A program made the translations under genes and the position numbers. 64,000 nucleotides of DNA from Ruminococcus flavefaciens. GTDB lineage: Bacteria; Bacillota; Clostridia; Oscillospirales; Ruminococcaceae. This document shows positions 4,063 through 26,273 of the stretch, piece by piece. The stretch covers positions 186,001 to 250,000 of the forward strand of contig CACWHY010000001.1 in NCBI GenBank assembly GCA_902760805.1. Direction: 5' to 3'. Under the pieces are notes generated by a model. That model worked only from the letters and a program-made list of their open reading frames with translations. It searched no databases and was not told where the DNA came from. Each line of letters opens with the position of its first letter. The stretch's first letter is position 1.

Positions 4063-5310
4063 TCAGCAGATGTACTGCTGGGCTTCCTTTATCAGCTTAA
4101 CGTCAACGAGAGCGTCGATCAGAGTGCCGTTCTCCTGATACTCCTCGGCGAAGACCTTGCCCTCGGCTCTGATCCGGCCGATGAAGGCGGTCTTGTCATA
4201 GGGGACAAGGAGAGTCATTCTCCGGGCGGTCTCCGGGAGATTTTCCGTAATGCACCTTAGCAGCTTGTCGAAGCCGGTGCGCTCCTTGGCGCTGATCATA
4301 ACGGTCTGGCTGTCCTCGAAAACTGTGTCCGGGTAAAGGGCAGCATCGGCCTTGTTCAGCACCTGGATTTTGGGGATCGCTTCGCAGCCCAGCTCGTTGA
4401 GGAGTTTCTCCGTGACCTGAGCCTGTTCCTCACGCTCGGGTGAGGAAAGGTCCTGCACATTGAGGATAATGTCGGCAGAAGCCGCCTCCTCCAACGTGGA
4501 CTTGAAGGCCTCTACAAGGTCGTGGGGCAGCCGCCGGATCAGTCCAACAGTGTCGATGAGCAGCACGCTCCTTCCGTCTGGCAGCTCTATGGAACGGGAG
4601 GTTATATCCAGTGTGGCAAACAGCTTGTTTTCCGCAAGAACACCGGCGTCGGTCAGTGCGTTGAGCAGTGTGGACTTGCCAACGTTGGTGTAGCCCACGA
4701 TAGCTGCGCAGAGCACTCCGTCCTTCTTTCGGCGGGAGCGTGAGAAGTCACGGTGCTTTTTAAGCTGTTCGAGCTCGTCCTCAAGGGCAGAGATCCTCTT
4801 GCGGATGTGGCGCTTGTCGGTCTCCAGCTTGGTCTCGCCGGGACCCCTAGTGCCGATACCTCCTCCCAATCGGGACAGGGCAGTTCCCATTCCGGTGAGC
4901 CGGGGCAGCCGGTATTTCTGCTGTGCCAGTTCAACCTGGAGCTTACCCTCCTTAGTGCGGGCACGCTGTGCGAAAATGTCTAAGATCAGCGTAGTTCGGT
5001 CGATAACTCTCACGTCAAGGATCTGCTCGATGTTTCGCACCTGAACTCCGGAGAGCTCATGGTCGAAGATCACCAGTTCTGCCTCCAGAGCCTCAAGCTG
5101 CTCCTTCAGCTCCTCCAGACGTCCTGCGCCCATGCAGGTAGCCGGGTCGTAGGACTGCTTCTTTTGGAGCACCTCACCTACTACCTCAGCGTTGGCAGTT
5201 GCGGCCAGCTCAGCCAGCTCAGCAAGGGAGGCCTCAGCGTCGAATTCTCCCGTATCTACGCAGGCCAGCACCGTGCGAACGGGCTGGTCATCGGTCTTGT
5301 TTTCGTACAT
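4063..5310 (-). CDS. hflX: GTPase HflX
   Basis: A ribosome-associated GTPase that splits or rescues stalled 70S ribosomes under stress. The 415-residue product shows the HflX N-terminal domain (LEELKEQLEALEAELVIFDH), the glycine-rich linker GGGIGTRGPGETKLETDKR, and a GTPase domain with P-loop GYTNVGKSTLLNAL, switch II DTVGLIRRLPHDLVEAF and a NKAD G4 motif. AAGGAGAAG precedes the ATG at 5310. It is the last gene of a minus-strand run: only 9 nt separate it from hslO, whose stop overlaps its ribosome-binding region. Confidence 0.96.
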   Translation of the reverse strand: MYENKTDDQPVRTVLACVDTGEFDAEASLAELAELAATANAEVVGEVLQKKQSYDPATCMGAGRLEELKEQLEALEAELVIFDHELSGVQVRNIEQILDVRVIDRTTLILDIFAQRARTKEGKLQVELAQQKYRLPRLTGMGTALSRLGGGIGTRGPGETKLETDKRHIRKRISALEDELEQLKKHRDFSRSRRKKDGVLCAAIVGYTNVGKSTLLNALTDAGVLAENKLFATLDITSRSIELPDGRSVLLIDTVGLIRRLPHDLVEAFKSTLEEAASADIILNVQDLSSPEREEQAQVTEKLLNELGCEAIPKIQVLNKADAALYPDTVFEDSQTVMISAKERTGFDKLLRCITENLPETARRMTLLVPYDKTAFIGRIRAEGKVFAEEYQENGTLIDALVDVKLIKEAQQYIC

Positions 5311-15634: not shown

Positions 15635-15637
15635 ATC

Positions 15638-15806
15638 AATGAGGTAGAGGTGCGGCTGCGATCAGTAACCCCTTTCCCGGACGACCGGTCCTATGGGAAG
15701 TGATGAAAGGCAATGCCGCCGAAGAACGGTCTCTGGTAAATTCCGTTCTGGCCGCCGGCTCAATAGGTCTGCGGCTGTCATCATGGTTTTGATGGAGAGC
15801 TACTGG
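15638..15806 (+). promoter_or_regulatory. Lysine riboswitch (L box) upstream of asd
   Basis: The 270-nt leader begins with GAGGTAGAGGTGCG, continues with AGTA, the GATGAAAGGC...GCCGAAG block, a GGTCTG segment, and closes with GGAGAGCTACTGGC. These are the conserved five-helix junction pieces of the lysine aptamer, with GGTAG and CTAC(T) forming P1. A terminator hairpin lies 48 nt downstream. Excess lysine should stabilise P1 and favour termination before asd, giving feedback on DAP/lysine synthesis. The gene order downstream supports the call. Confidence 0.93.
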
Positions 15807-15853
15807 CATTACGGCAAAACGGATGTCAACATTTCTATTATAACTCATGATGA

Positions 15854-15912: not shown

Positions 15913-16992
15913 ATGAAACAGTACAACGTTGGAATTATCGGCGCTACGGGTATGGTAGGCCAGAGATTTGCCACGCTCCTGGAAAACCACCCATGGTTCA
16001 ATGTGAAGGTGCTGGCTGCTTCTCCCAGAAGTGCAGGCCAGACCTATGAGCAGGCCGCCGGCTCACGCTGGAAGATGGCAGTTCCCATGCCTGCTGCTAT
16101 GAAGGACATGATCCTCATGGACGCTACCAGCGACATCGAGAAGATCGCATCTATGGTGGACTTCTGCTTCTGCGCTGTTGATATGAAGAAGGACGAGATC
16201 AAGGCTTTAGAGGAGGCTTATGCCAAGGCTGAGTGCCCTATCGTTTCCAATAACTCTGCACACAGATTTACTCCCGACGTGCCTATGGTCGTTCCGGAGA
16301 TCAACCCCGATCACATCGAGATCATCAAGGCTCAGCGTGAGCGCCTCGGCACAAAGAGAGGCTTCATCGCTGTTAAGTCTAACTGCTCTATCCAGAGCTA
16401 CGTTCCCGCACTTCACCCCCTGAGAAAGTTCGGCCTCACAAAGGTCCTGGCCTGCACATATCAGGCTATCTCTGGCGCAGGCAAGAACTTCGAGACATGG
16501 CCTGAGATGGTGGATAACCTTATCCCCTTCATCGGCGGTGAAGAGGAGAAGTCTGAGCAGGAGCCTCTGAAGGTTTGGGGCGAGATCAAGGGCAACGAGA
16601 TCGTTAAGGCTCAGACACCTCAGATCACGACTCAGTGCCTGAGAGTCCCTGTTTCTGACGGACATACAGCAGCAGTTTTCGTTTCCTTCGAGAACAAGCC
16701 CTCCAAGGAGGAGATCCTCCAGCTCTGGAAGGACTTCAAGGGCGTTCCCCAGGAGCTTGAGCTCCCCAGCGCTCCCAAGCAGTTCATCCACTATTTTGAG
16801 GAGGATGATCGTCCTCAGGCTAAGCTGGACAGAAATATCGAAGGCGGTATGGCTGTTTCTACAGGCCGTCTCCGTGAGGATACTCAGTACGATTACAAGT
16901 TCGTGTGCCTGTCACACAACACTCTCAGAGGAGCAGCCGGCGGCGGAGTTCTCCTTGCTGAGCTCCTTGCTGCAAAGGGTTACTTTGACTGA
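15913..16992 (+). CDS. asd: Aspartate-semialdehyde dehydrogenase
   Basis: Reduces aspartyl-phosphate to aspartate semialdehyde with NADPH, the branch point to lysine/DAP, threonine and methionine. The 359-residue product has the dinucleotide motif [13 protein letters not shown], catalytic Cys158 in KSNCSIQSY, and [16 protein letters not shown] at the C-terminus. The length and the SNCSIQS motif suit the archaeal/yeast-like ASADH branch rather than the E. coli type (family knowledge). AAGGAGAG precedes the ATG. First gene under the lysine riboswitch. Confidence 0.96.
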
Positions 16993-17012
16993 TCTCAGAG
17001 TAAAAGAACAAT

Positions 17013-17050
17013 ACCGGCGTAGGGCGGATCTATGTGTCCGCCAGGCCGGT
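17013..17050. repeat. Palindromic intergenic repeat, copy 1
   Basis: The core at 17019-17042 starts GTAGGGCGGA and ends TGTCCGCC; the same sequence with two base changes recurs at 22110-22133. GGCGGA and TCCGCC form a hairpin, extended here by ACCGGC/GCCGGT outside. It lies between asd and dapA. Confidence 0.7.
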
Positions 17051-17130
17051 CAGTAAAACCATATCAGTATGAGTGCGATGCGGATATGATCTCGCATCAC
17101 GCATTGATCTCACCCGGAGGGAGAAGCTAT

Positions 17131-18021
17131 ATGAAGAACACTATTTTCACCGGTGCGGCTATTGCTATCATCACTCCCATGAATGCCGACGGTTCTATCA
17201 ATTACGATAAGCTGGGAGAGCTTATCGACTCCCAGATCGAGAGCGGAACTGACGCTATCGTTATCTGCGGAACTACTGGCGAGTCTGCCACGATGACTGA
17301 CGACGAGCACCGTGACTGTATCAGATTTGCTGTAAAGCACGTTGCGGGCAGAGTTCCTGTTATCGCTGGTGCCGGCAGCAACGATACAAAGTACGCTGTT
17401 GAGCTCTCCAAGGAGGCTGAGGCAGCCGGCGCAGACGCTCTGCTCCACGTTACTCCTTACTACAACAAGACCACTCAGAAGGGCCTTATAGCTCACTTCA
17501 CAGCCGTTGCTGACGCTGTCAACATCCCGATCATCCTCTACAATGTACCCAGCAGAACTGGCTGCGGTCTGGAGGTTGCTACTGTTAAGGAGCTGGCTAA
17601 GCACAAGAACATCGCTGCTATCAAGGAAGCCAGCGGAAATATCAGCTATGTGGCTAAGCTCATCGCTGAGTGCGGCGACAATATCGACGTTTACAGCGGA
17701 AACGATGATATGATCGTTCCTATCATGTCTCTGGGCGGAAAGGGCGTTATCTCCGTTCTTTCCCACGTTATCCCCGCCGAGACTCACCGTATGGCTCAGC
17801 TTTGCCTGGAGAACAACTTTGCAGAGGCTATGAAGCTCCAGATCGAGTATCTGGACCTTACAAATAACCTGTTTATCGAGGTAAACCCCATTCCTGTAAA
17901 GGAAGCCATGAACATGATCGGCTTTGAGGCCGGTCCCTGCCGTCTGCCTCTTTGCGAGATGACAGACGAGCATCGTGAGATCCTCCGTGCCTGTCTTGCT
18001 AAGCACGGACTCATCAAGTAA
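17131..18021 (+). CDS. dapA: 4-hydroxy-tetrahydrodipicolinate synthase
   Basis: Condenses pyruvate and aspartate semialdehyde; first committed step to DAP and lysine. The 296-residue TIM-barrel protein has GTTGESATMTDDEH, the proton-relay Tyr in YNVPSRTG and Schiff-base Lys165 in AAIKEASGN. ATG 17131 follows CGGAGGGAG; a longer frame upstream runs through the intergenic repeat and is not credible. About 140 nt after asd, with repeat hairpins between. Confidence 0.97.
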   Translation: MKNTIFTGAAIAIITPMNADGSINYDKLGELIDSQIESGTDAIVICGTTGESATMTDDEHRDCIRFAVKHVAGRVPVIAGAGSNDTKYAVELSKEAEAAGADALLHVTPYYNKTTQKGLIAHFTAVADAVNIPIILYNVPSRTGCGLEVATVKELAKHKNIAAIKEASGNISYVAKLIAECGDNIDVYSGNDDMIVPIMSLGGKGVISVLSHVIPAETHRMAQLCLENNFAEAMKLQIEYLDLTNNLFIEVNPIPVKEAMNMIGFEAGPCRLPLCEMTDEHREILRACLAKHGLIK

Positions 18022-18030
18022 AAAAACAGC

Positions 18031-18059
18031 GACAGGCGGCAATTTTCTGCCGCCTTGTC
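18031..18059 (+). other. dapA-dapB intergenic hairpin
   Basis: GACAGGCGGCA (18031-18041) pairs with TGCCGCCTTGTC (18048-18059) with one bulged base. No U-run follows, so it probably tunes mRNA stability or translation of dapB rather than ending transcription. Confidence 0.5.
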
Positions 18060-18082
18060 AGTATGAAAGGGAAGTGAATTTC

Positions 18083-18838
18083 ATGACAAGGATAGCTATT
18101 TGCGGCGCAAACGGAAAAATGGGCAAGAATGTTTTTGCCTGTGCTGATGAGCGTGAGGACTGCACTGTCATCGCCGGTATCGACATCTACACCAAGCAGT
18201 ATGCGGATTTCCCCATTGTGGAAACTCCTGCGCAGCTCCCCGAAAAGCCCGATGTTATCATAGATTTCTCAAACCCGGCATCTCTTGACGGACTTCTGGA
18301 TTACTGTCTTTCAACAGGCACACCGCTGGTCATCGCCTCTACAGGCTACAGCGACGAGCAGATCCAGCAGATCAAGGACGCCTCTGCGCAGATCCCGGTG
18401 TTCTTTACATTCAATATGTCACTGGGCATCAACCTTCTTGTGAACCTCGCTAAGAAGGCTGCCGCAGTTCTTGGTGACCGCTTCGACATCGAGATCGTCG
18501 AGAAGCACCACAATCAGAAGATCGACGCTCCCAGCGGAACTGCCATTATGCTGGCAAACGCTGTGAACGAGGTGTTCAACGACACAAAGCACTGCGTATA
18601 CGACAGACACTCCCAGCGCAAGAAGAGGGAGAAGTCTGAGATCGGTATGCACTCGATCCGTGGCGGCACCATCGTTGGCGAGCATGATGTGATCTTCGCC
18701 GGAAACGACGAGGTGATCACTCTGTCCCACAGCGCTGCATCAAAGCGTGTCTTCGCTGAGGGCTCAGTGAATGCGGCTGTTTTCCTGAAGGATCAGCCTG
18801 CTGGAATGTACGATATGCAGATGATGCTGGCTGACTGA
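18083..18838 (+). CDS. dapB: 4-hydroxy-tetrahydrodipicolinate reductase
   Basis: Reduces the DapA product to tetrahydrodipicolinate with NAD(P)H. The 251-residue product has the Rossmann motif ICGANGKMGKNV and the substrate motif EIVEKHHNQKIDAPSGTA, with GGTIVGEHDVIFAG near the C-terminus. ATG 18083 follows AAAGGGAAG. The stop codon overlaps the ATG of the next gene by one base. Confidence 0.97.
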   Translation: MTRIAICGANGKMGKNVFACADEREDCTVIAGIDIYTKQYADFPIVETPAQLPEKPDVIIDFSNPASLDGLLDYCLSTGTPLVIASTGYSDEQIQQIKDASAQIPVFFTFNMSLGINLLVNLAKKAAAVLGDRFDIEIVEKHHNQKIDAPSGTAIMLANAVNEVFNDTKHCVYDRHSQRKKREKSEIGMHSIRGGTIVGEHDVIFAGNDEVITLSHSAASKRVFAEGSVNAAVFLKDQPAGMYDMQMMLAD

Positions 18839-19317
18839 TGTCTGACGTGAAAGAACAGGCTTCGGAAGCCTCTCAGGAGGACAAGCCCGTCAAAGCAGGC
18901 TGCCTCGGAGCGCTGATGAGATCCGCCGGTATCATAGCCCTTGTGATCATCTTCACGATCGCAGTCATCATTATTTTGCTGCTGTGGTCAATGGGCGGCA
19001 CTAAATACACCATTTTTGGTAAAAAGCGCACCGCTAAAATGGAGGAGATCTTCGGCATTTCAGTTACCGATGATATCACGCTGAGTGCGTATAACGGTTA
19101 CGCAGGATTTGACGATGATCAGGAGCTTGAGCTGCAAACCAAGGACTATCAGAGCTTCCTTGATGATCTGGTCAAGGGCACCAAGCTGGAAAAACGTCCG
19201 GCAGATCGGGCTGTATGTGCCTTTTCGTATGAGTGGAAGGGCGATACTGTTTACGGCGAGGTCTGGCAGTATGAGTCCAGAAATGGACTGTACACGGTCA
19301 ATTTAAGGATATATTGA
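18838..19317 (+). CDS. Single-pass membrane protein of unknown function in the DAP operon
   Basis: A 159-residue protein with an acidic N-terminus, one strong transmembrane segment (about residues 33-52, IIALVIIFTIAVIIILLLW) and an extracellular domain of about 100 residues rich in acidic and aromatic residues. No family recognised. Its ATG overlaps the dapB stop (TGATG), so it is translationally coupled to dapB. It may be an envelope protein riding with peptidoglycan precursor genes; this is inference from position only. Confidence 0.7.
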   Translation: MSDVKEQASEASQEDKPVKAGCLGALMRSAGIIALVIIFTIAVIIILLLWSMGGTKYTIFGKKRTAKMEEIFGISVTDDITLSAYNGYAGFDDDQELELQTKDYQSFLDDLVKGTKLEKRPADRAVCAFSYEWKGDTVYGEVWQYESRNGLYTVNLRIY

Positions 19318-19359
19318 TCATTCACACCGGCCAGCGACTGCACTTCACTGGCTGACTGA

Positions 19360-19386
19360 CCTGATGATCAGCATCAGGCTTATAAT
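19360..19386 (+). promoter_or_regulatory. Inverted repeat abutting a -10 box before ddh
   Basis: CCTGATG (19360-19366) and CATCAGG (19372-19378) form a 7-bp inverted repeat, followed two bases later by TATAAT (19381-19386). No good -35 hexamer exists, so this may be an activator- or repressor-controlled promoter for ddh. Alternatively it is only an intercistronic hairpin. Confidence 0.4.
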
Positions 19387-19448
19387 TGTTCAATGCTTTC
19401 GGTCAATGACGACAGGAAGTAAATATATTTACAAAGGAGATCATTCCT

Positions 19449-20438
19449 ATGAGCAAACTTAGAATCGGTATCGCTGGCTACGGCAACCTTGGTAAAGGCG
19501 TTGAGCTTGCGATCAGACAGAACGACGATATGGAGCTGGCAGGCATTTTCACACGCCGTGACCCCGCTTCTCTCAAGCCCCTTACTGAGGGAGCACCTGT
19601 TTTCAGCATGAACGACATCCAGTCCAAGAAGGACGACATCGACGTACTTATCATCTGCGGAGGAAGCGCTACTGACCTTCCTAAGCAGACTCCTGAGCTG
19701 GCTCAGTACTTCAACGTTATCGACAGCTTCGATACACACGCCCGTATCCCTGAGCACTTTGCCAACGTTGACAAGGCTGCTAAGGAGTCCGGACACCTTG
19801 CATTCATCTCACTGGGCTGGGATCCCGGCCTGTTCTCACTGAACAGACTCTACGCTGAGTCCATTCTTCCCAACGGCAAGAGCTACACATTCTGGGGCAA
19901 GGGCGTCAGCCAGGGCCACTCCGATGCTATCCGCCGTGTTGAAGGCGTAAAGCGTGGCATCCAGTACACTGTTCCGATCGAGTCTGCTATGGAGGCAGTT
20001 CGCTCCGGAAGCCAGCCTGACCTGACAACTCGTGAGAAGCACCTGAGAGAGTGCTGGGTAGTTCCCGAGGAGGGCGCTGATCTGGCTAAGATCGAGGAGT
20101 CCATCAAGACCATGAAGAACTACTTCGACCAGTACGACACAACTGTAAACTTCATCACTGAGGAGGAGTTCGACGCTGTTCACAACAAGATGCCTCACGG
20201 CGGCTTCGTAATGAGAAGCGGTCTCACAGGCGACGGCGAGAAGACTCACCAGATGATCGAATACTCACTGAAGCTGGAGTCCAACCCTGAGTTCACTGCA
20301 AGTGTGCTTATCTGCTTTGCAAGAGCTCTTGGCAGAATGAAGGCTGAGGGCGCAACAGGCTGCAAGACAGCATTTGACGTTCCCCCTGCATATCTTTCAA
20401 AGCTCTCCGGCGAGGAACTGAGAGCTTCAATGCTCTGA
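19449..20438 (+). CDS. ddh: meso-Diaminopimelate dehydrogenase
   Basis: Catalyses reductive amination of tetrahydrodipicolinate straight to meso-DAP with NADPH and ammonia, bypassing the succinylase/acetylase or aminotransferase routes. The 329-residue product has IGIAGYGNLGKGVELAI (dinucleotide site), IICGGSATDLPKQTPELAQ, LGWDPGLFSLNRLYAE, the substrate region FWGKGVSQGHSDAIRR, and MPHGGFVMRSG. AAAGGAGATC precedes the ATG. Located 130 nt after the riboswitch-controlled genes, it completes DAP synthesis together with asd, dapA and dapB. Confidence 0.96.
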   Translation: MSKLRIGIAGYGNLGKGVELAIRQNDDMELAGIFTRRDPASLKPLTEGAPVFSMNDIQSKKDDIDVLIICGGSATDLPKQTPELAQYFNVIDSFDTHARIPEHFANVDKAAKESGHLAFISLGWDPGLFSLNRLYAESILPNGKSYTFWGKGVSQGHSDAIRRVEGVKRGIQYTVPIESAMEAVRSGSQPDLTTREKHLRECWVVPEEGADLAKIEESIKTMKNYFDQYDTTVNFITEEEFDAVHNKMPHGGFVMRSGLTGDGEKTHQMIEYSLKLESNPEFTASVLICFARALGRMKAEGATGCKTAFDVPPAYLSKLSGEELRASML

Positions 20439-21666: not shown

Positions 21667-22101
21667 ATGATCGAACAGGACACGGTTAAGCTGCTTAGAG
21701 AGTGCGATTCCGGCATAGAAATGGGGATCTCGGCGATAAATGAGGTGATCGGCCACGTCAGTGACGACAGGCTTCGGAAAAGGCTCAGCCAGAGCCTTGA
21801 TGAGAACACCGGTCTGAAAACCGACCTACAGGAGCTGCTGGACATCTACCACGACAGCGGCAAGGAGCCTCCGGCCATGGTGAAGGGGATGTCCAAGCTG
21901 AAGACCGGCTTTGAGCTGGCAATGGACGGCTCTGACGGCAAGATAGCGGAGCTGATGATCGACGGCTGCAACATGGGCGTGAAGTCCCTGAGCAGGTACC
22001 TCAACCAGTACAAGGCCGCAGATGAGCGCTCCAAGGACTTAGCCAAGCGCCTTATCTCTGCGGAGGAGAAGCTCTCCTGCGATATGAGGGGCTTTCTCTG
22101 A
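21667..22101 (+). CDS. Small all-helical protein, possible four-helix bundle
   Basis: A 144-residue soluble protein, almost entirely amphipathic helix: TVKLLRECDSGIEMGISAIN, RLRKRLSQSLDENTGLKTDL, KGMSKLKTGFELAM, then ADERSKDLAKRLISAEEKL. This resembles DUF2383/ferritin-like bundles without obvious metal ligands; assignment is tentative. ATG 21667 is preceded by AAGGGAG located inside a terminator hairpin; an upstream in-frame start would read through the hairpin and is less likely. Confidence 0.65.
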   Translation: MIEQDTVKLLRECDSGIEMGISAINEVIGHVSDDRLRKRLSQSLDENTGLKTDLQELLDIYHDSGKEPPAMVKGMSKLKTGFELAMDGSDGKIAELMIDGCNMGVKSLSRYLNQYKAADERSKDLAKRLISAEEKLSCDMRGFL

Positions 22102-22109
22102 TCCAAACA

Positions 22110-22134
22110 GTAGGGCGGACCCATGTGTCCGCCC
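22110..22134. repeat. Palindromic intergenic repeat, copy 2
   Basis: Starts GTAGGGCGGA and ends TGTCCGCCC, with arms GGGCGGA / TCCGCCC around an 8-nt centre. It matches the copy at 17019-17042 except at two positions. It lies between convergent genes (helical protein + strand; glycyl-radical protein - strand). Confidence 0.7.
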
Positions 22135-22152
22135 TTCCTGATTTGGGAAACA

Positions 22153-22183
22153 TTAAAAAGGCAGCCCTTAACGGACTGCCTTT
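22153..22183 (-). terminator. Terminator of the pyruvate formate-lyase operon
   Basis: On the minus strand AAAGGCAG (22183-22176) pairs with CTGCCTTT (22164-22157), followed by TTAATG. Five bases after the glycyl-radical gene stop. Confidence 0.85.
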
Positions 22184-22187
22184 CGTT

Positions 22188-22427
22188 TTACAGTGATTTG
22201 TGGAATGTACGGGAGATAACGTCGTCCTGCTGCTCCTTAGTGAGCTTTACGAAGTTTACGGCGTATCCCGAAACTCTAACGGTAAGCTGGGGGTACTTCT
22301 CAGGGTGAGCCTGAGCGTCCAGCAGAGTCTCACGAGTGAACACGTTAACGTTCAGGTGATGCCCGCCTTTTTCAACATAACCGTCGATGAGCTCGATAAG
22401 GTTATCTACCTGCTTCTGATCGTTCAT
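22188..22427 (-). CDS. grcA: Separate glycyl-radical domain of pyruvate formate-lyase (GrcA-like)
   Basis: A 79-residue protein that aligns with the last part of standard Pfl[33 protein letters not shown], then the radical loop RVSGYAV with Gly54, and [14 protein letters not shown] at the end. Activated by a radical-SAM activase, the Gly54 radical would start catalysis at the core's Cys pair. In E. coli GrcA/YfiD is a spare part for oxygen-cleaved PflB; here the PflB-like core in the same operon lacks this segment, so the small protein should be an obligatory subunit. A strong AAGGAGGAA ribosome-binding site precedes the ATG. No activase gene is in the window. Confidence 0.92.
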
Positions 22428-22439
22428 AATAGTTCCTCC

Positions 22440-22643
22440 TTATTCATCGTCTTCGTCGATAGCGTTTTCTGTAGGCTGACAGCAGGCTCCCTTGGAGGTG
22501 CCGCAGTCATTGCTCTTTACAGTATCCACCCTCACGCCCGATTCTCCGGCAGCGATGTTGACGTGGCCGCTGCCCTGAGCCATTAGCTGGTCGATGAGGT
22601 CGGCAAGCTCCTCAGGAGAGCCGCCGTTTTTAAGGTCAGTCAT
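22440..22643 (-). CDS. 67-residue Cys-containing protein between the two halves of pyruvate formate-lyase
   Basis: A 67-residue acidic protein. Residues 11-31 ([20 protein letters not shown]) resemble the start of the neighbouring glycyl-radical protein ([23 protein letters not shown]). Its second half has no RVSGYAV loop; instead it carries [13 protein letters not shown] (Cys47, Cys54, Cys55) and an acidic tail. ATG 22643 follows GGGAGGAAAACG and overlaps the pflB stop by 8 nt, so translation is coupled; grcA starts 12 nt past its stop. I infer a degenerate duplicate turned into an assembly, protection or metal-binding factor; no function is established. Confidence 0.8.
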
Positions 22644-24756
22644 CGTTTTCCTCCCTGAGCTTGTCCAGGTCGATGTCGCCGACGAATACCTGCATATCCT
22701 TGCCAAGAGCGTCAGGAACGATGGAGAATGTGTTGGAAATACCGTCCTGTGCGTGGCGGAAGGGCAGCTTGGCAACAGATGACAGGGAAGCGGTAGCACC
22801 GTGGGTGTCTCTTCCGTGCATTGGGTTAGCTCCGGGAGCCAGCGGCACGCCCTGCTTGCGTCCGTCAGGAGTATTACCGGTCTTCTTTCCGTAGACCACG
22901 TTGGAAGTGATCGTGAGGATAGACATTGTGGGAACTCCGTCACGGTATGTGTGGTGCTTTCTTATGCAGTCCATGAACTTGCGGACAACGGTAACAGCCA
23001 GCTGATCGACACGGTCGTCGTTGTTGCCGTATTTGGGGAAGTCGCCCTCGATCTCGTAGTCAACTACAACGTTCTTGGCAACGTCGATAACATTTCCGGA
23101 CTTGTCCTTGATCTCGATGTCCTTGCGGATAGGCTTTACCTTAGCGTACTTGATAGCTGAGAGCGAGTCAGCGACTACAGACAGACCGGCGATACCGGTA
23201 GCGAAATAGCGCTTTACATCTCTGTCGTGGAGAGCCATCTGGAGGCGCTCATAGCTGTACTTATCGTGCATATAGTGGATAACGTTCAGGGTGTTGACGT
23301 AGAGGCCGGCCAGCCACTCCATCATGTCCATGTACTTCTCCCAAACGTCATCGAAGTCGAGGTATTCAGTGTCAACGGGTCTGAACTTGGGACCTACCTG
23401 AAGGCCAAGTCTCTCGTCCACACCGCCGTTGATAGCGTAGAGCAGGCACTTTGCCAGGTTAGCTCTGGCGCCGAAGAACTGCATCTCCTTGCCCACACGC
23501 ATGGAGGAAACGCAGCAGGCGATAGCGTAGTCATCGCCGTGGATAACACGCATCATATCGTCGTTCTCATACTGGATAGAGGAGGTCTTGATAGACATTC
23601 TAGCGCAGTATTCCTTGAACTTTCTGGGGAGCTTCTGAGACCAGAGAATAGTCATGTTAGGCTCGGGAGCAGTACCCAGGTTTTCCAGAGTGTGAAGGTA
23701 ACGGAAGCTGTTCTTAGTTACCAGGTGGTGACCGTCCACATCAACTCCGCCGATCGACTCAGTGATCCAAGTGGGGTCGCCGGAGAAGAGCTCGTTGTAC
23801 TCAGGAGTACGGGCAAACTTGACGATACGCAGTTTCATGATGAAGTGGTCGATGAGCTCCTGAGCCTGTTCTTCGGTGATAAGGCCTCTGTCAAGGTCAC
23901 GCTGGATGTAGATATCCAGGAAGGTAGAAGTTCTTCCAAGGGACATTGCGGCACCATTCTGCTCCTTAACGGCAGCAAGGTAGCCGAAATAGAGCCACTG
24001 AACAGCCTCCTTAGCGGTCTTGGCGGGGCGAGAGATATCGAAGCCGTAGATTTTACCCAGCTCCTTCAGATCCTGAAGAGCTCTTACCTGCTCGGAAAGC
24101 TCCTCACGAAGGCGGATATTCTTAGAGGTCATCCTAACGAGGGATGTATCGATCTGGTGCTTCTTGTCAGCGATAAGGATGTCGATACCGTAGAGGGCAA
24201 CACGCCTGTAGTCGCCGATGATACGGCCTCTTCCGTAAGCGTCGGGAAGTCCGGTGAGGATAGCGGAATGACGGGCGAGCCTCATCTCTGGAGTATAAGC
24301 GTCGAAAACGCCCTGATTATGGGTCTTTCTGTATTTTGTGAAGATCTCCACAACAGAAGGATCCACCTCATAGCCGTACTCCTTGCAGGCCTGCTGAGCC
24401 ATACGGATGCCGCCGAAGGGCTGGAGAGCGCGCTTGAAGGGCTTGTCTGTCTGAAGGCCAACGATCTGCTCGAGGTCCTTGTTGAGATAACCGGCACCGT
24501 GAGAGGTGATCGTAGAAATGATCTTGGTGTCCATATCGAGGACTCCGCCGGCTTCACGCTCCTGACGAGTCAGGTCCATGACCTGCTCCCAGAGCTTTTT
24601 GGTGGCCTCGGTAGGAGCGGCGAGAAAGCTCTCATCACCGTCGTAGGGGGTATAATTCTTCTTGATGAAATCACGAACATTGACAGAGGTATTGCTCCAT
24701 CTGCCGGGGGTAAATCCTTCCCACTCAGAGGGGAATTCTTCCAGGTAATGTATCAT
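22636..24756 (-). CDS. pflB: Pyruvate formate-lyase catalytic core lacking the glycyl-radical segment
   Basis: Converts pyruvate and CoA to formate and acetyl-CoA in anaerobes. The 706-residue product aligns with PflB from the N-terminus ([19 protein letters not shown]) through the active site, with Cys414-Cys415 in IACCVSSM, to [11 protein letters not shown]. It then ends with an acidic tail instead of the final 50-60 residues of standard PflB (about 760 residues), which hold the radical glycine. Those residues are encoded by the 79-residue gene downstream. No frameshift explains it: the next two genes have their own ribosome-binding sites and frames. Preceded by AAAGGAG and a perfect sigma-A promoter. 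Confidence 0.95.
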
Positions 24757-24793
24757 CAGATCACAGCTCCTTTACAGAAAATCTTACCTTATC

Positions 24794-24822
24794 ATTATAT
24801 ATGATTGACGAAGTTTTGTCAA
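24794..24822 (-). promoter_or_regulatory. Promoter of the pyruvate formate-lyase operon with overlapping palindrome
   Basis: On the minus strand TTGACA (24822-24817), 17-nt spacer, TATAAT (24799-24794); both hexamers perfect. ATTGAC and GTCAAT form an inverted repeat with an 8-nt centre (24804-24823) covering the -35 box and much of the spacer, where a repressor would block RNA polymerase. Confidence 0.88.
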
Positions 24823-24864
24823 TCTTCTTATGCGCCAAAAGGGGTGTTTTGTTCGGCAGAGATT

Positions 24865-24881
24865 TTGATAACTTTTAACAA
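24865..24881. promoter_or_regulatory. Possible Rex-like site upstream of pflB
   Basis: TTGATAA-CTT-TTAACAA resembles the Rex (NADH-sensing repressor) consensus TTGTTAA-N4-TTAACAA, but with one mismatch and a spacer one base short. It lies about 45 nt upstream of the -35 box. Low confidence. Confidence 0.25.
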
Positions 24882-24961
24882 AAACGCATTTTTTTCAGGC
24901 GGAGCATGGGCAACCGCACGGCTTCCACTCCAAACAGTCACAAAATATGCCTTTAATTTTC

Positions 24962-24996
24962 ACCAAAACCACTAAATATAGTGAGTGGCTTTTGGT
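24962..24996 (-). terminator. Stem-loop after the AI-2E family gene
   Basis: On the minus strand ACCAAAAGCCACT pairs with AGTGGTTTTGGT with one bulge. A weak A/T-rich tract (GAAAATTAAA) follows rather than a clean U-run, so termination is probable but not certain. The rest of 24823-25010 holds only the Rex-like site. Confidence 0.5.
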
Positions 24997-25010
24997 CATT
25001 TGAGAGATTT

Positions 25011-26273
25011 TCATTTTTTCTTGCGGCTGCGCTTTTTTGGACGCTGCTGCTTTTGGGGAGTTTCCTTCTTTGGCTCGGCTTGCGGCTCAGGGGGGCTTGG
25101 CGGAGCTTCTGCCGACGCTGGAACAGGCGCTCCTTCGGGGGCTTCTTTGGACTCAAGGTGCTGGAAGAACAGCTTGTAGGCAGTGGCCGCCAGGGGGACT
25201 CCAAGGATCATTCCCAGGATACCGAAAAGGCCGCCGCCCAGAGTTACTGCGGCGAGCACCCAGATACCGGGCAGGCCGATGGAGTTTCCCACCACCTTGG
25301 GGTAGATGACGTTGCCTTCGATCTGCTGTAGGATAACGAGGAAAATCAGGAAGATCAGCGCCTGCATGGGGTTTTCCGTGAAAATGATGAAGGCGCTAAC
25401 ACCGGCACCGATGAAGGCTCCCACGATAGGGATGAGGGCAGTTACGCCAACGAGGGTGCCGCTCATTGCAGCATAGGGCAGCTGCAAGATCTTCATGCCT
25501 ATGAAGCACAGCGAACCCAGGATCAGCGCTTCCACAAACTGTCCGATGATGAAACTGCGGAAGGTCTGGTTTGCAGTTTCAAGGAAATGGTTTAGCCGCT
25601 GGTTGGTCTTTTCCGAGAAGTAGACCTTCTGAGCACGCTTTGCATCACGGATCAGGGTGTCCTTGCGGATCAGCAGGTAAACTGCGAAGATCAGCGCCAG
25701 GACGATGTTTGTGACGGTGCCTGTGATAGCTCCGACGATACCCACTGCGGAGCTGATTATGCCCACTACTCCGGACTGTAAGATGCCTGTGATCTTGGCT
25801 GTCAGAGAGGCCCAGTCTATCTCCTTGGGGTCGAACTGATCAAGAGCCTCAGTGATCTGAGCCTGGATCTCAGGGTATTCCTTGAATTTGGTCACAAGAA
25901 AGTCACGGCAGCGAACGGCAAGCGGCGGTATTCCGGCAGTTACCAGCTTTACCGCACGGATGAGCTCAGGGATGACGATGTTCAGCACAAGCGTGATGAT
26001 CAGGATCACAATCAGGAAGGAAAGTCCAACGCAGAGCGGCCGGCGTGTAAGAGAGGCCGCTTTTCCATGACTTTTTGGGAAGTAATGCCTTTCAAGGCTA
26101 TTGAGGATGATGTTGAAAAGATATGCTAAAACGCAGCCCAGCACCAGCGGGAACATTGCTGTCAGCAGCACCGACATCCCTTTAGTGAACAGGGAGAGAT
26201 TTTGCACAGCATAGCACACAATGATAGCTAAAACCGAGATAACAAGATATTTGCGGAATTCCTTTTTGTCCAT
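25011..26273 (-). CDS. AI-2E family transporter (PerM/YtvI type)
   Basis: A 420-residue polytopic membrane protein. Hydrophobic segments include AIIVCYAVQNLSLF, VLLTAMFPLVLGCVLAYLF, LSFLIVILIITLVLNIVIP, then a soluble insert, IVLALIFAVYLLI, and the conserved C-terminal block ALIPIVGAFIGAGVSAFIIF with KVVGNSIGLPGIWVLAAVTLGG. Families include TqsA (autoinducer-2 export) and sporulation or sodium-linked exporters, so substrate is open. An extra Pro/Glu/Lys-rich tail ends in KKRSRKKK. Faces the GGDEF gene divergently. Confidence 0.88.
   Translation of the reverse strand: MDKKEFRKYLVISVLAIIVCYAVQNLSLFTKGMSVLLTAMFPLVLGCVLAYLFNIILNSLERHYFPKSHGKAASLTRRPLCVGLSFLIVILIITLVLNIVIPELIRAVKLVTAGIPPLAVRCRDFLVTKFKEYPEIQAQITEALDQFDPKEIDWASLTAKITGILQSGVVGIISSAVGIVGAITGTVTNIVLALIFAVYLLIRKDTLIRDAKRAQKVYFSEKTNQRLNHFLETANQTFRSFIIGQFVEALILGSLCFIGMKILQLPYAAMSGTLVGVTALIPIVGAFIGAGVSAFIIFTENPMQALIFLIFLVILQQIEGNVIYPKVVGNSIGLPGIWVLAAVTLGGGLFGILGMILGVPLAATAYKLFFQHLESKEAPEGAPVPASAEAPPSPPEPQAEPKKETPQKQQRPKKRSRKKK

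Follow-up and report, generated by a model that had tools for sequence, protein, structure and literature searches.

A very probably obligate split of pyruvate formate-lyase, usually accompanied by a third element, in Ruminococcus flavefaciens and other Clostridia

Introduction

Pyruvate formate-lyase (PFL) is one of the chief enzymes by which anaerobes turn pyruvate into acetyl-CoA, and oxygen destroys it at its radical glycine. A locus of Ruminococcus flavefaciens raises the question of whether this glycine can reside permanently on a protein other than the catalytic core and, if so, what else such an enzyme carries with it. The locus lies within a 64,000-nucleotide stretch of contig CACWHY010000001.1 (assembly GCA_902760805.1), which we call the window and whose coordinates are used here. 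A first-pass annotation, made from the letters of the window, had proposed that a PFL core ending before its glycyl-radical domain is completed by a small protein encoded two genes downstream, that assembly in trans would be essential, and that no such enzyme was known to have been described.

Results

Organisation of the locus

The features of the operon are as follows.

22636..24756, minus strand: split PFL core, 706 aa, with catalytic Cys414-Cys415 (codons 23517-23512) and without radical glycine; stop codon TGA
22440..22643, minus strand: middle protein, 67 aa, with a GrcA-like N-terminal helix-strand and a cysteine motif (Cys47, Cys54, Cys55)
22188..22427, minus strand: GrcA3, 79 aa, which carries the glycyl-radical domain apart from the core; codon of Gly54 at 22268-22266
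22435..22439, minus strand: Shine-Dalgarno sequence GGAGG, 7 nt 5' of the GrcA3 ATG, read from the sequence
24794..24822, minus strand: candidate promoter TTGACA-17-TATAAT 5' of the core, called by consensus match (12 of 12 positions)
22156..22184, minus strand: intrinsic terminator directly 3' of grcA3, with a 12-pair stem and a T-rich tail

The gene order on the minus strand is core, middle gene and grcA3, with one predicted promoter and the terminator at the end, the latter being the only minus-strand terminator-like site within 22050-25050. The start codon of the middle gene overlaps the stop end of the core by 8 nt. An inverted repeat (TTGAC...GTCAA) lies across the operon promoter at 24803-24824 and may be an operator. 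Elsewhere in the window there is a lysine riboswitch on the plus strand (15637-15810; 92.7 bits against a gathering threshold of 30), and the frames 3' of it, at 15913-20438, look by eye like lysine-biosynthesis genes.

Core and GrcA3 are two parts of one PFL

The core scores 1113.5 bits against TIGR01255, over a cut-off of 994.2, and covers profile positions 1-667 of 744. It has both the score and the cysteine pair of this family, the latter in the motif IACCVSSM at Cys414-415, and it lacks a radical glycine domain in the same polypeptide. Likewise, its Pfam matches comprise positions 6-647 of PF02901 and only positions 2-50 of the Gly_radical family PF01228, the remainder of which (49-106) is found on the 79-aa protein, so that this one domain is divided between two proteins. 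Alignment with E. coli PFL (1h16) placed core residues 6-690 on 5-680 and residues 3-78 of the small protein on 678-758, with Gly54 on Gly734; together, the two parts span the E. coli enzyme with no gap. The small protein, which has the RVSGYAV loop, belongs to the GrcA3 family NF038360 (166.5 bits; cut-off 158), and falls well short of the family of the E. coli-type spare part GrcA (TIGR04365; 98.3 bits against a cut-off of 170). The division of labour read from the letters of the window, with the cysteine pair on one protein and the radical glycine on another, is thus borne out by family profiles and by alignment.

Median dN/dS is 0.046 in GrcA3, 0.05 over the final 300 core codons and 0.25 in the middle protein, which places both PFL parts under strong purifying selection. 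Of 74 relatives, 73 have a Shine-Dalgarno-like word ahead of grcA3.

Profile searches of the window genome find no fused PFL

In the window genome (2.73 Mb, 96.5% complete, 44 contigs) the core and GrcA3 are the only matches to PF01228 at E≤0.001 and there is a single match to PF02901, and these profile searches found no full-length (fused) PFL. A search with TIGR02493 identified one canonical PFL activase (pflA) over the cut-off (300.9 against 231.75 bits), a protein of 248 aa encoded ~66 kb from the operon, in which the CxxxCxxC motif of that family is present as QGCPLRCKYCHN. R. flavefaciens is reported in PMC8092306 to make formate.

The split recurs across Ruminococcus and twelve families of Clostridia

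We examined 24 genomes of the window's genus, including that of the window itself, some of which are only 64-83% complete; the names under which the fetched loci are recorded identify this genus as Ruminococcus. The split is present in 22, and no fused PFL was found in those 22. Eight extra weak PF01228 matches (about 21-26 bits) were considered as a possible hidden second PFL, and this was rejected for the two that were scanned, both of which are anaerobic ribonucleotide reductases (NrdD). No PFL core, GrcA3 or middle protein was found in the other two genomes, G011 (96% complete) and G021 (64% complete), and G011 may have lost PFL together with the middle gene. The split is also carried by the R. 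flavefaciens isolates FD-1 and 007c, and the nearest core in our tree (L069) is 97% identical to that of the window.

In a draw of genomes from the order, a separate small GrcA3 frame over the NF038360 cut-off was detected in 11 of 247, while in a draw from the class, with matches limited to E≤1e-40, 16 of 293 genomes were split, 14 of them over the cut-off and two just below it with a small frame. A draw from the phylum, limited to E≤1e-44, gave two matches to NF038360 among 299 genomes, namely the window genome and one of the same class. Taken together, the order and class draws contain 26 distinct split genomes from 12 families, the window's included, and 24 of the 25 others have no fused PFL over the cut-off. 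The exception, G482 (L187), has the split along with a complete fused PFL of 750 aa; its split core is long-branched and without a cysteine element, and is perhaps under relaxed constraint. Two further loci are irregular, with an in-frame TAA inside the core of G441 (L186), reflecting either assembly error or decay, and a core broken by contig ends in G440.

Outside the phylum, Collinsella aerofaciens (Actinomycetota, L008) has a split PFL with GrcA3, with no middle gene at the locus and no cysteine tail. Since its core groups inside the Clostridia split clade, the split was likely gained there by transfer. Of 23 non-Ruminococcus split loci (the L168-L191 set with L174 left out), 21 have an activase-like frame, which lies downstream of GrcA3 in 20 and before the core in L191. 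No such frame was found at L174 or at the seven other Ruminococcus loci examined.

Given the absence of a fused PFL from the genome searches, the presence of an activase, purifying selection on both parts, relatives organised alike and the formate production reported for R. flavefaciens, it is very probable that the operon encodes an obligately split PFL for which assembly in trans is essential. The small protein could instead be a mere spare part as in E. coli, with a full-length PFL hidden in the missing part of a genome that is 96.5% complete and in 44 contigs, but this is very improbable given that no fused PFL was found in any of the 22 split Ruminococcus genomes or in 24 of the 25 other split genomes (G184 among the latter also being of the same genus), and that the core itself has no glycine, which a spare part would not require. 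That the core is a decaying or assembly-damaged pseudogene, with formate coming from another enzyme, is scarcely credible: its frame does end early relative to E. coli PFL and one relative (G441) has an internal stop, but its dN/dS is 0.05, no alternative PFL was found in the window genome, and the split recurs in isolates and across 12 families with different frame relations and with grcA3 having its own ribosome sites. The conservation in isolates and the dN/dS likewise led us to reject a sequencing error at the pflB stop, which the first-pass annotation had named as a possible refutation. Recoding of the stop codon was also rejected, because the next gene in Ruminococcus is often in another frame and because, of the 18 other loci listed, 16 end the core with TAA and two with TGA.

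The middle protein is conserved and resembles the start of GrcA

The first-pass annotation had correctly placed GrcA3 two genes downstream of the core, but it passed over the gene in between, which is not filler and encodes a conserved third component. This protein is present in all 20 same-genus sequences aligned, with a consensus formed of a GrcA-like start followed by a cysteine motif in which G-A-C-x-Q-P is invariant. Using a middle-protein profile we identified 107 relatives among genome contigs, and in 77 of the best 80 of these the core, middle protein and GrcA3 could all be recognised by motif, the exceptions (L102, L109 and L139) failing on motif or contig end. Relatives also occur in other families. 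The gap and dN/dS counts cover the 74 of 81 sequences that could be parsed by motif, the window and six loci being left out. In these 74 parsed loci the middle gene starts between -8 and +19 nt from the core end in 72, with overlap in 36; these counts use the last ATG and some core-middle gaps are therefore overlong. At one locus, L179 (G401), the middle gene (4064-4249) lies downstream of GrcA3 instead of between the core and GrcA3.

The motif C-x(1-4)-[KQN]GAC is found in all 74 parsed Ruminococcus middle proteins, and Cys47 and Cys54 are invariant in 13 diverse middle proteins. We found no significant NCBIfam or Pfam match for the protein. However, profile-profile comparison of the 13 diverse sequences with GrcA3 gave a probability of 93% (E 2.5e-7 for one pair) over 32 columns, all of them N-terminal and to which the GrcA likeness is confined. 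Narrower profiles gave weaker results, with 84% for nine sequences and 11% (E 0.0026) for Ruminococcus alone. When a middle-protein HMM was run against the frames of the fetched loci, a small set for which the following E-values hold, it matched GrcA3 proteins (E about 5e-6 to 8e-4) and the radical domain of some fused PFLs (E 0.001 upwards); weak matches, at E 0.006 to 0.04, were to the cysteine-bearing tails of several other split cores. The middle protein is not itself a GrcA3, as only three of nine diverse members reach E≤0.1 against NF038360, the best at 0.0061, and the RVSGY loop was not found in it; moreover, its profile matched no glycyl radical enzyme at E≤10 among all PDB chains. In sequence it resembles the docking half of GrcA with a cysteine motif attached, and it is this motif that is found elsewhere on the core itself.

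Middle gene and cysteine tail do not occur together in the split genomes sampled

The split is usually accompanied by a third element, either the middle protein or a similar cysteine motif on the tail of the core. In the class draw the middle protein was detected in 8 of 293 genomes (E≤1e-6), all eight of which are among the 16 split ones, although the profile was built partly from class hits that it later recovered. A search of 18 same-genus genomes found it in 16, the remaining two being those that lack PFL, and it was found in none of the three genomes with a nested fused PFL (see below). Among the 26 split genomes the middle gene is present in 11 and a core tail with at least two cysteines in 13, while two have neither and none has both (Fisher p 2e-5 on these counts); for the tail-type genomes of the order draw, the search for a middle gene covered the locus only. 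Likewise, the 39 split rows of the tree set comprise 24 with the middle gene, 12 with a cysteine tail, three with neither and none with both. On the tree these states require three changes for the tail and five for the gene, and an independent-pairs test, with at most two informative pairs, was not significant; the exclusivity is thus a strong pattern that comes from few evolutionary events. Neither form was found in G482, G431 or Collinsella (L008), which indicates that the third element is not strictly required.

Three fused PFLs lie inside the split group

We built a tree from 55 cores (39 split, 16 fused), each truncated ahead of the radical domain, with L186 excluded as too short. The split rows group together with three fused PFLs nested among them (L192/G224, L193/G206 and L206/G543), and because these lie inside the group a constraint making the split a single clade was rejected (AU p 3e-6). 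One split with later re-fusion and more than one split are both possible histories. The radical domains of the three nested fused PFLs are GrcA3-like, at 150.5, 144.3 and 151.5 bits, with the next-best fused PFLs reaching 135.6 bits in the order and 143.2 in the class, and this helps the former reading. The three also have neither the middle protein nor a cysteine tail, which again suggests that they are re-fused PFLs.

Structure predictions and PDB cores

AlphaFold2 modelling of the core, middle protein and GrcA3 of a relative was poor (pLDDT 64), while the core and middle protein of the same relative (77 alignment rows) gave a good core with the middle protein at a pLDDT of about 50. Fused PFLs had aligned their own strand onto the middle protein, a source of bias, and were therefore left out of the three-part fold and cut at LGK for the core-middle fold, and two alignments in which MAFFT had misplaced short fragments were not used for folding. 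The Foldseek match to E. coli PFL extended over 671 columns, roughly what the core would account for by itself, and together AlphaFold2 and Foldseek gave no support for docking of the middle protein in the radical-domain site.

Among PDB chains there are two formate acetyltransferases, 38la (687 aa) and 38lb (739 aa), in which the radical domain was not matched. The former ends right after LGK, and the latter extends about 50 residues further into a cysteine-bearing tail that reads FGECDMCEMKELD and includes ECDMCEM. Profile searches of PDB chains found no GrcA3-like or middle-like chain for either entry. Both were missing from the 50 matches listed of 213 found by Foldseek, whose structure library ends on 8 April 2026, and they are thus probably newer than that library.

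Discussion

A mechanism for radical delivery in trans

In the mechanism that we propose, the core carries the pyruvate/CoA site and the cysteine pair, and GrcA3 the radical glycine. PflA would generate the radical at Gly54, most likely with GrcA3 docked on the core, and the radical would then be handed to the core cysteine as in E. coli PFL, a step suggested by homology and by the work on E. coli GrcA. The oxygen-labile glycine would thereby be placed on a replaceable subunit of 79 aa, which, as the first-pass annotation suggested, might be exchanged quickly when oxygen has damaged it.

For the third element, the most pertinent background comes from E. coli, where PflB G734A is reported to make formate in vivo only with GrcA (PMC12338860). 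In vitro, E. coli PFL cut at residue 695 binds the GrcA homologue YfiD too weakly for ITC, its activation is 32-fold lower than that of PFL cut at 734, and residues 696-733 are described as the recognition element for YfiD (PMC8683613). By analogy, this poor binding is a problem that a native split core would have to solve. Because the middle protein resembles the start of the very segment that the split core is missing, we propose a loading and placeholder role, in which the third element would take the place of the stretch that immediately precedes the radical glycine (E. coli 696-733), steady the empty core and hold the radical-domain site, and then hand over to GrcA3, with its cysteines giving redox control. 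We put this forward tentatively, as our best guess: the data show how the genes are laid out, conserved, related in sequence and found together, while the binding site, the order of events and the redox role are inferred.

A bolder version would make split PFLs three-part machines in which the middle protein is a dedicated decoy: it would share the docking helix and strand of the radical domain and have a cysteine motif where that domain has its glycine loop. The decoy would hold the core site when GrcA3 is absent or burnt, protect the catalytic cysteines, be swapped for fresh GrcA3, and be lost on re-fusion. This is possible but rather doubtful; if true, the radical subunit would amount to a consumable cartridge looked after by a keeper of its own, which lineages that re-fuse the enzyme have lost again.

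The third element might instead be a device for redox control or oxygen protection, in which its cysteines, when conditions turn oxidising, would form a disulfide, or a mixed disulfide with the core cysteine pair, that blocks GrcA3 docking or radical formation. Two cysteines are indeed among its most constant residues, in the motif common to all 74 parsed proteins and at the two positions invariant in the 13 diverse ones; furthermore, 12 of the 15 tree-set split cores without a middle gene have a tail with at least two cysteines, whereas none of the 24 cores with a middle gene has any, and the tail of the PDB core 38lb also contains ECDMCEM. However, such a device leaves the GrcA-like N-terminal module unexplained and three split systems do without the cysteines, and we regard it as doubtful though conceivable.

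A reading that sets the middle protein beside the beta and gamma accessory subunits of benzylsuccinate synthase (BSS) is unlikely. It draws on the conservation of the middle protein under selection and on its start lying between 8 nt before and 2 nt after the core end in 51 of 74 parsed loci, close junctions that suggest matched synthesis. BSS-beta and BSS-gamma, however, bind a [4Fe-4S] cluster and have a HiPIP-like fold (PMC12590467), and the middle protein, with two or three motif cysteines of which two are invariant, has no Pfam match to any such family of Fe-S accessory subunits.

Significance

From their genes, rumen Ruminococcus and many other gut Clostridia are predicted to make the oxygen-sensitive radical piece as a separate small protein. 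With the glycine always on a separate and cheap subunit, radical delivery in trans would be a standing mode of PFL as well as a means of rescue. Why a core without residues 696-733 binds the spare part so poorly is a question left by the E. coli work, and the middle protein, which looks like the docking part of 696-733 supplied separately, makes this question directly testable and adds a third component with a testable mechanism. The clade with its nested fused forms likewise offers natural comparisons for what is gained by separation. There is also a consequence for annotation, in that such a core passes a complete formate acetyltransferase model though its radical glycine is elsewhere.

Comparison with known systems

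The small part of the split has been named before, as the 79-aa protein is a member of NF038360 (GrcA3), which is also annotated beside pflB in Collinsella aerofaciens; NF038360 names neither the glycine-less core nor the middle protein. PDB 38la and 38lb, compared here through pieces of their sequence and their molecule name only, are likewise PFL cores without a radical-domain match. A literature search whose coverage lay mostly outside subscription journals found no paper describing a split PFL or GrcA3, and to that extent the earlier impression of an undescribed enzyme stands, but with the GrcA3 name and the PDB cores pre-existing the claim of complete novelty is weakened. The naming of GrcA3 by NCBI and the deposition of 38la and 38lb indicate that the split is probably under study by others. 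The third element, for which we found neither a description nor a significant NCBIfam or Pfam match, is apparently undescribed.

BSS resembles the split PFL in having small accessory proteins, BSS-beta and BSS-gamma, on a glycyl radical enzyme, and differs in that these are [4Fe-4S] subunits of HiPIP-like fold on an enzyme with its own glycine (PMC12590467), with no detected relation to the middle protein. The closest parallel is E. coli PflB with GrcA/YfiD, in which a separate radical-domain protein acts in trans on a PFL core together with PflA (PMC12338860 in vivo, PMC8683613 in vitro); the available parts of these two reports make no mention of a third element. The E. coli PflB, however, has its own glycine and GrcA serves as rescue, and while YfiD is a protein of 127 aa with a disordered 60-aa N-terminus, GrcA3 here has 79 aa, is encoded within the operon and is the sole radical source identified.
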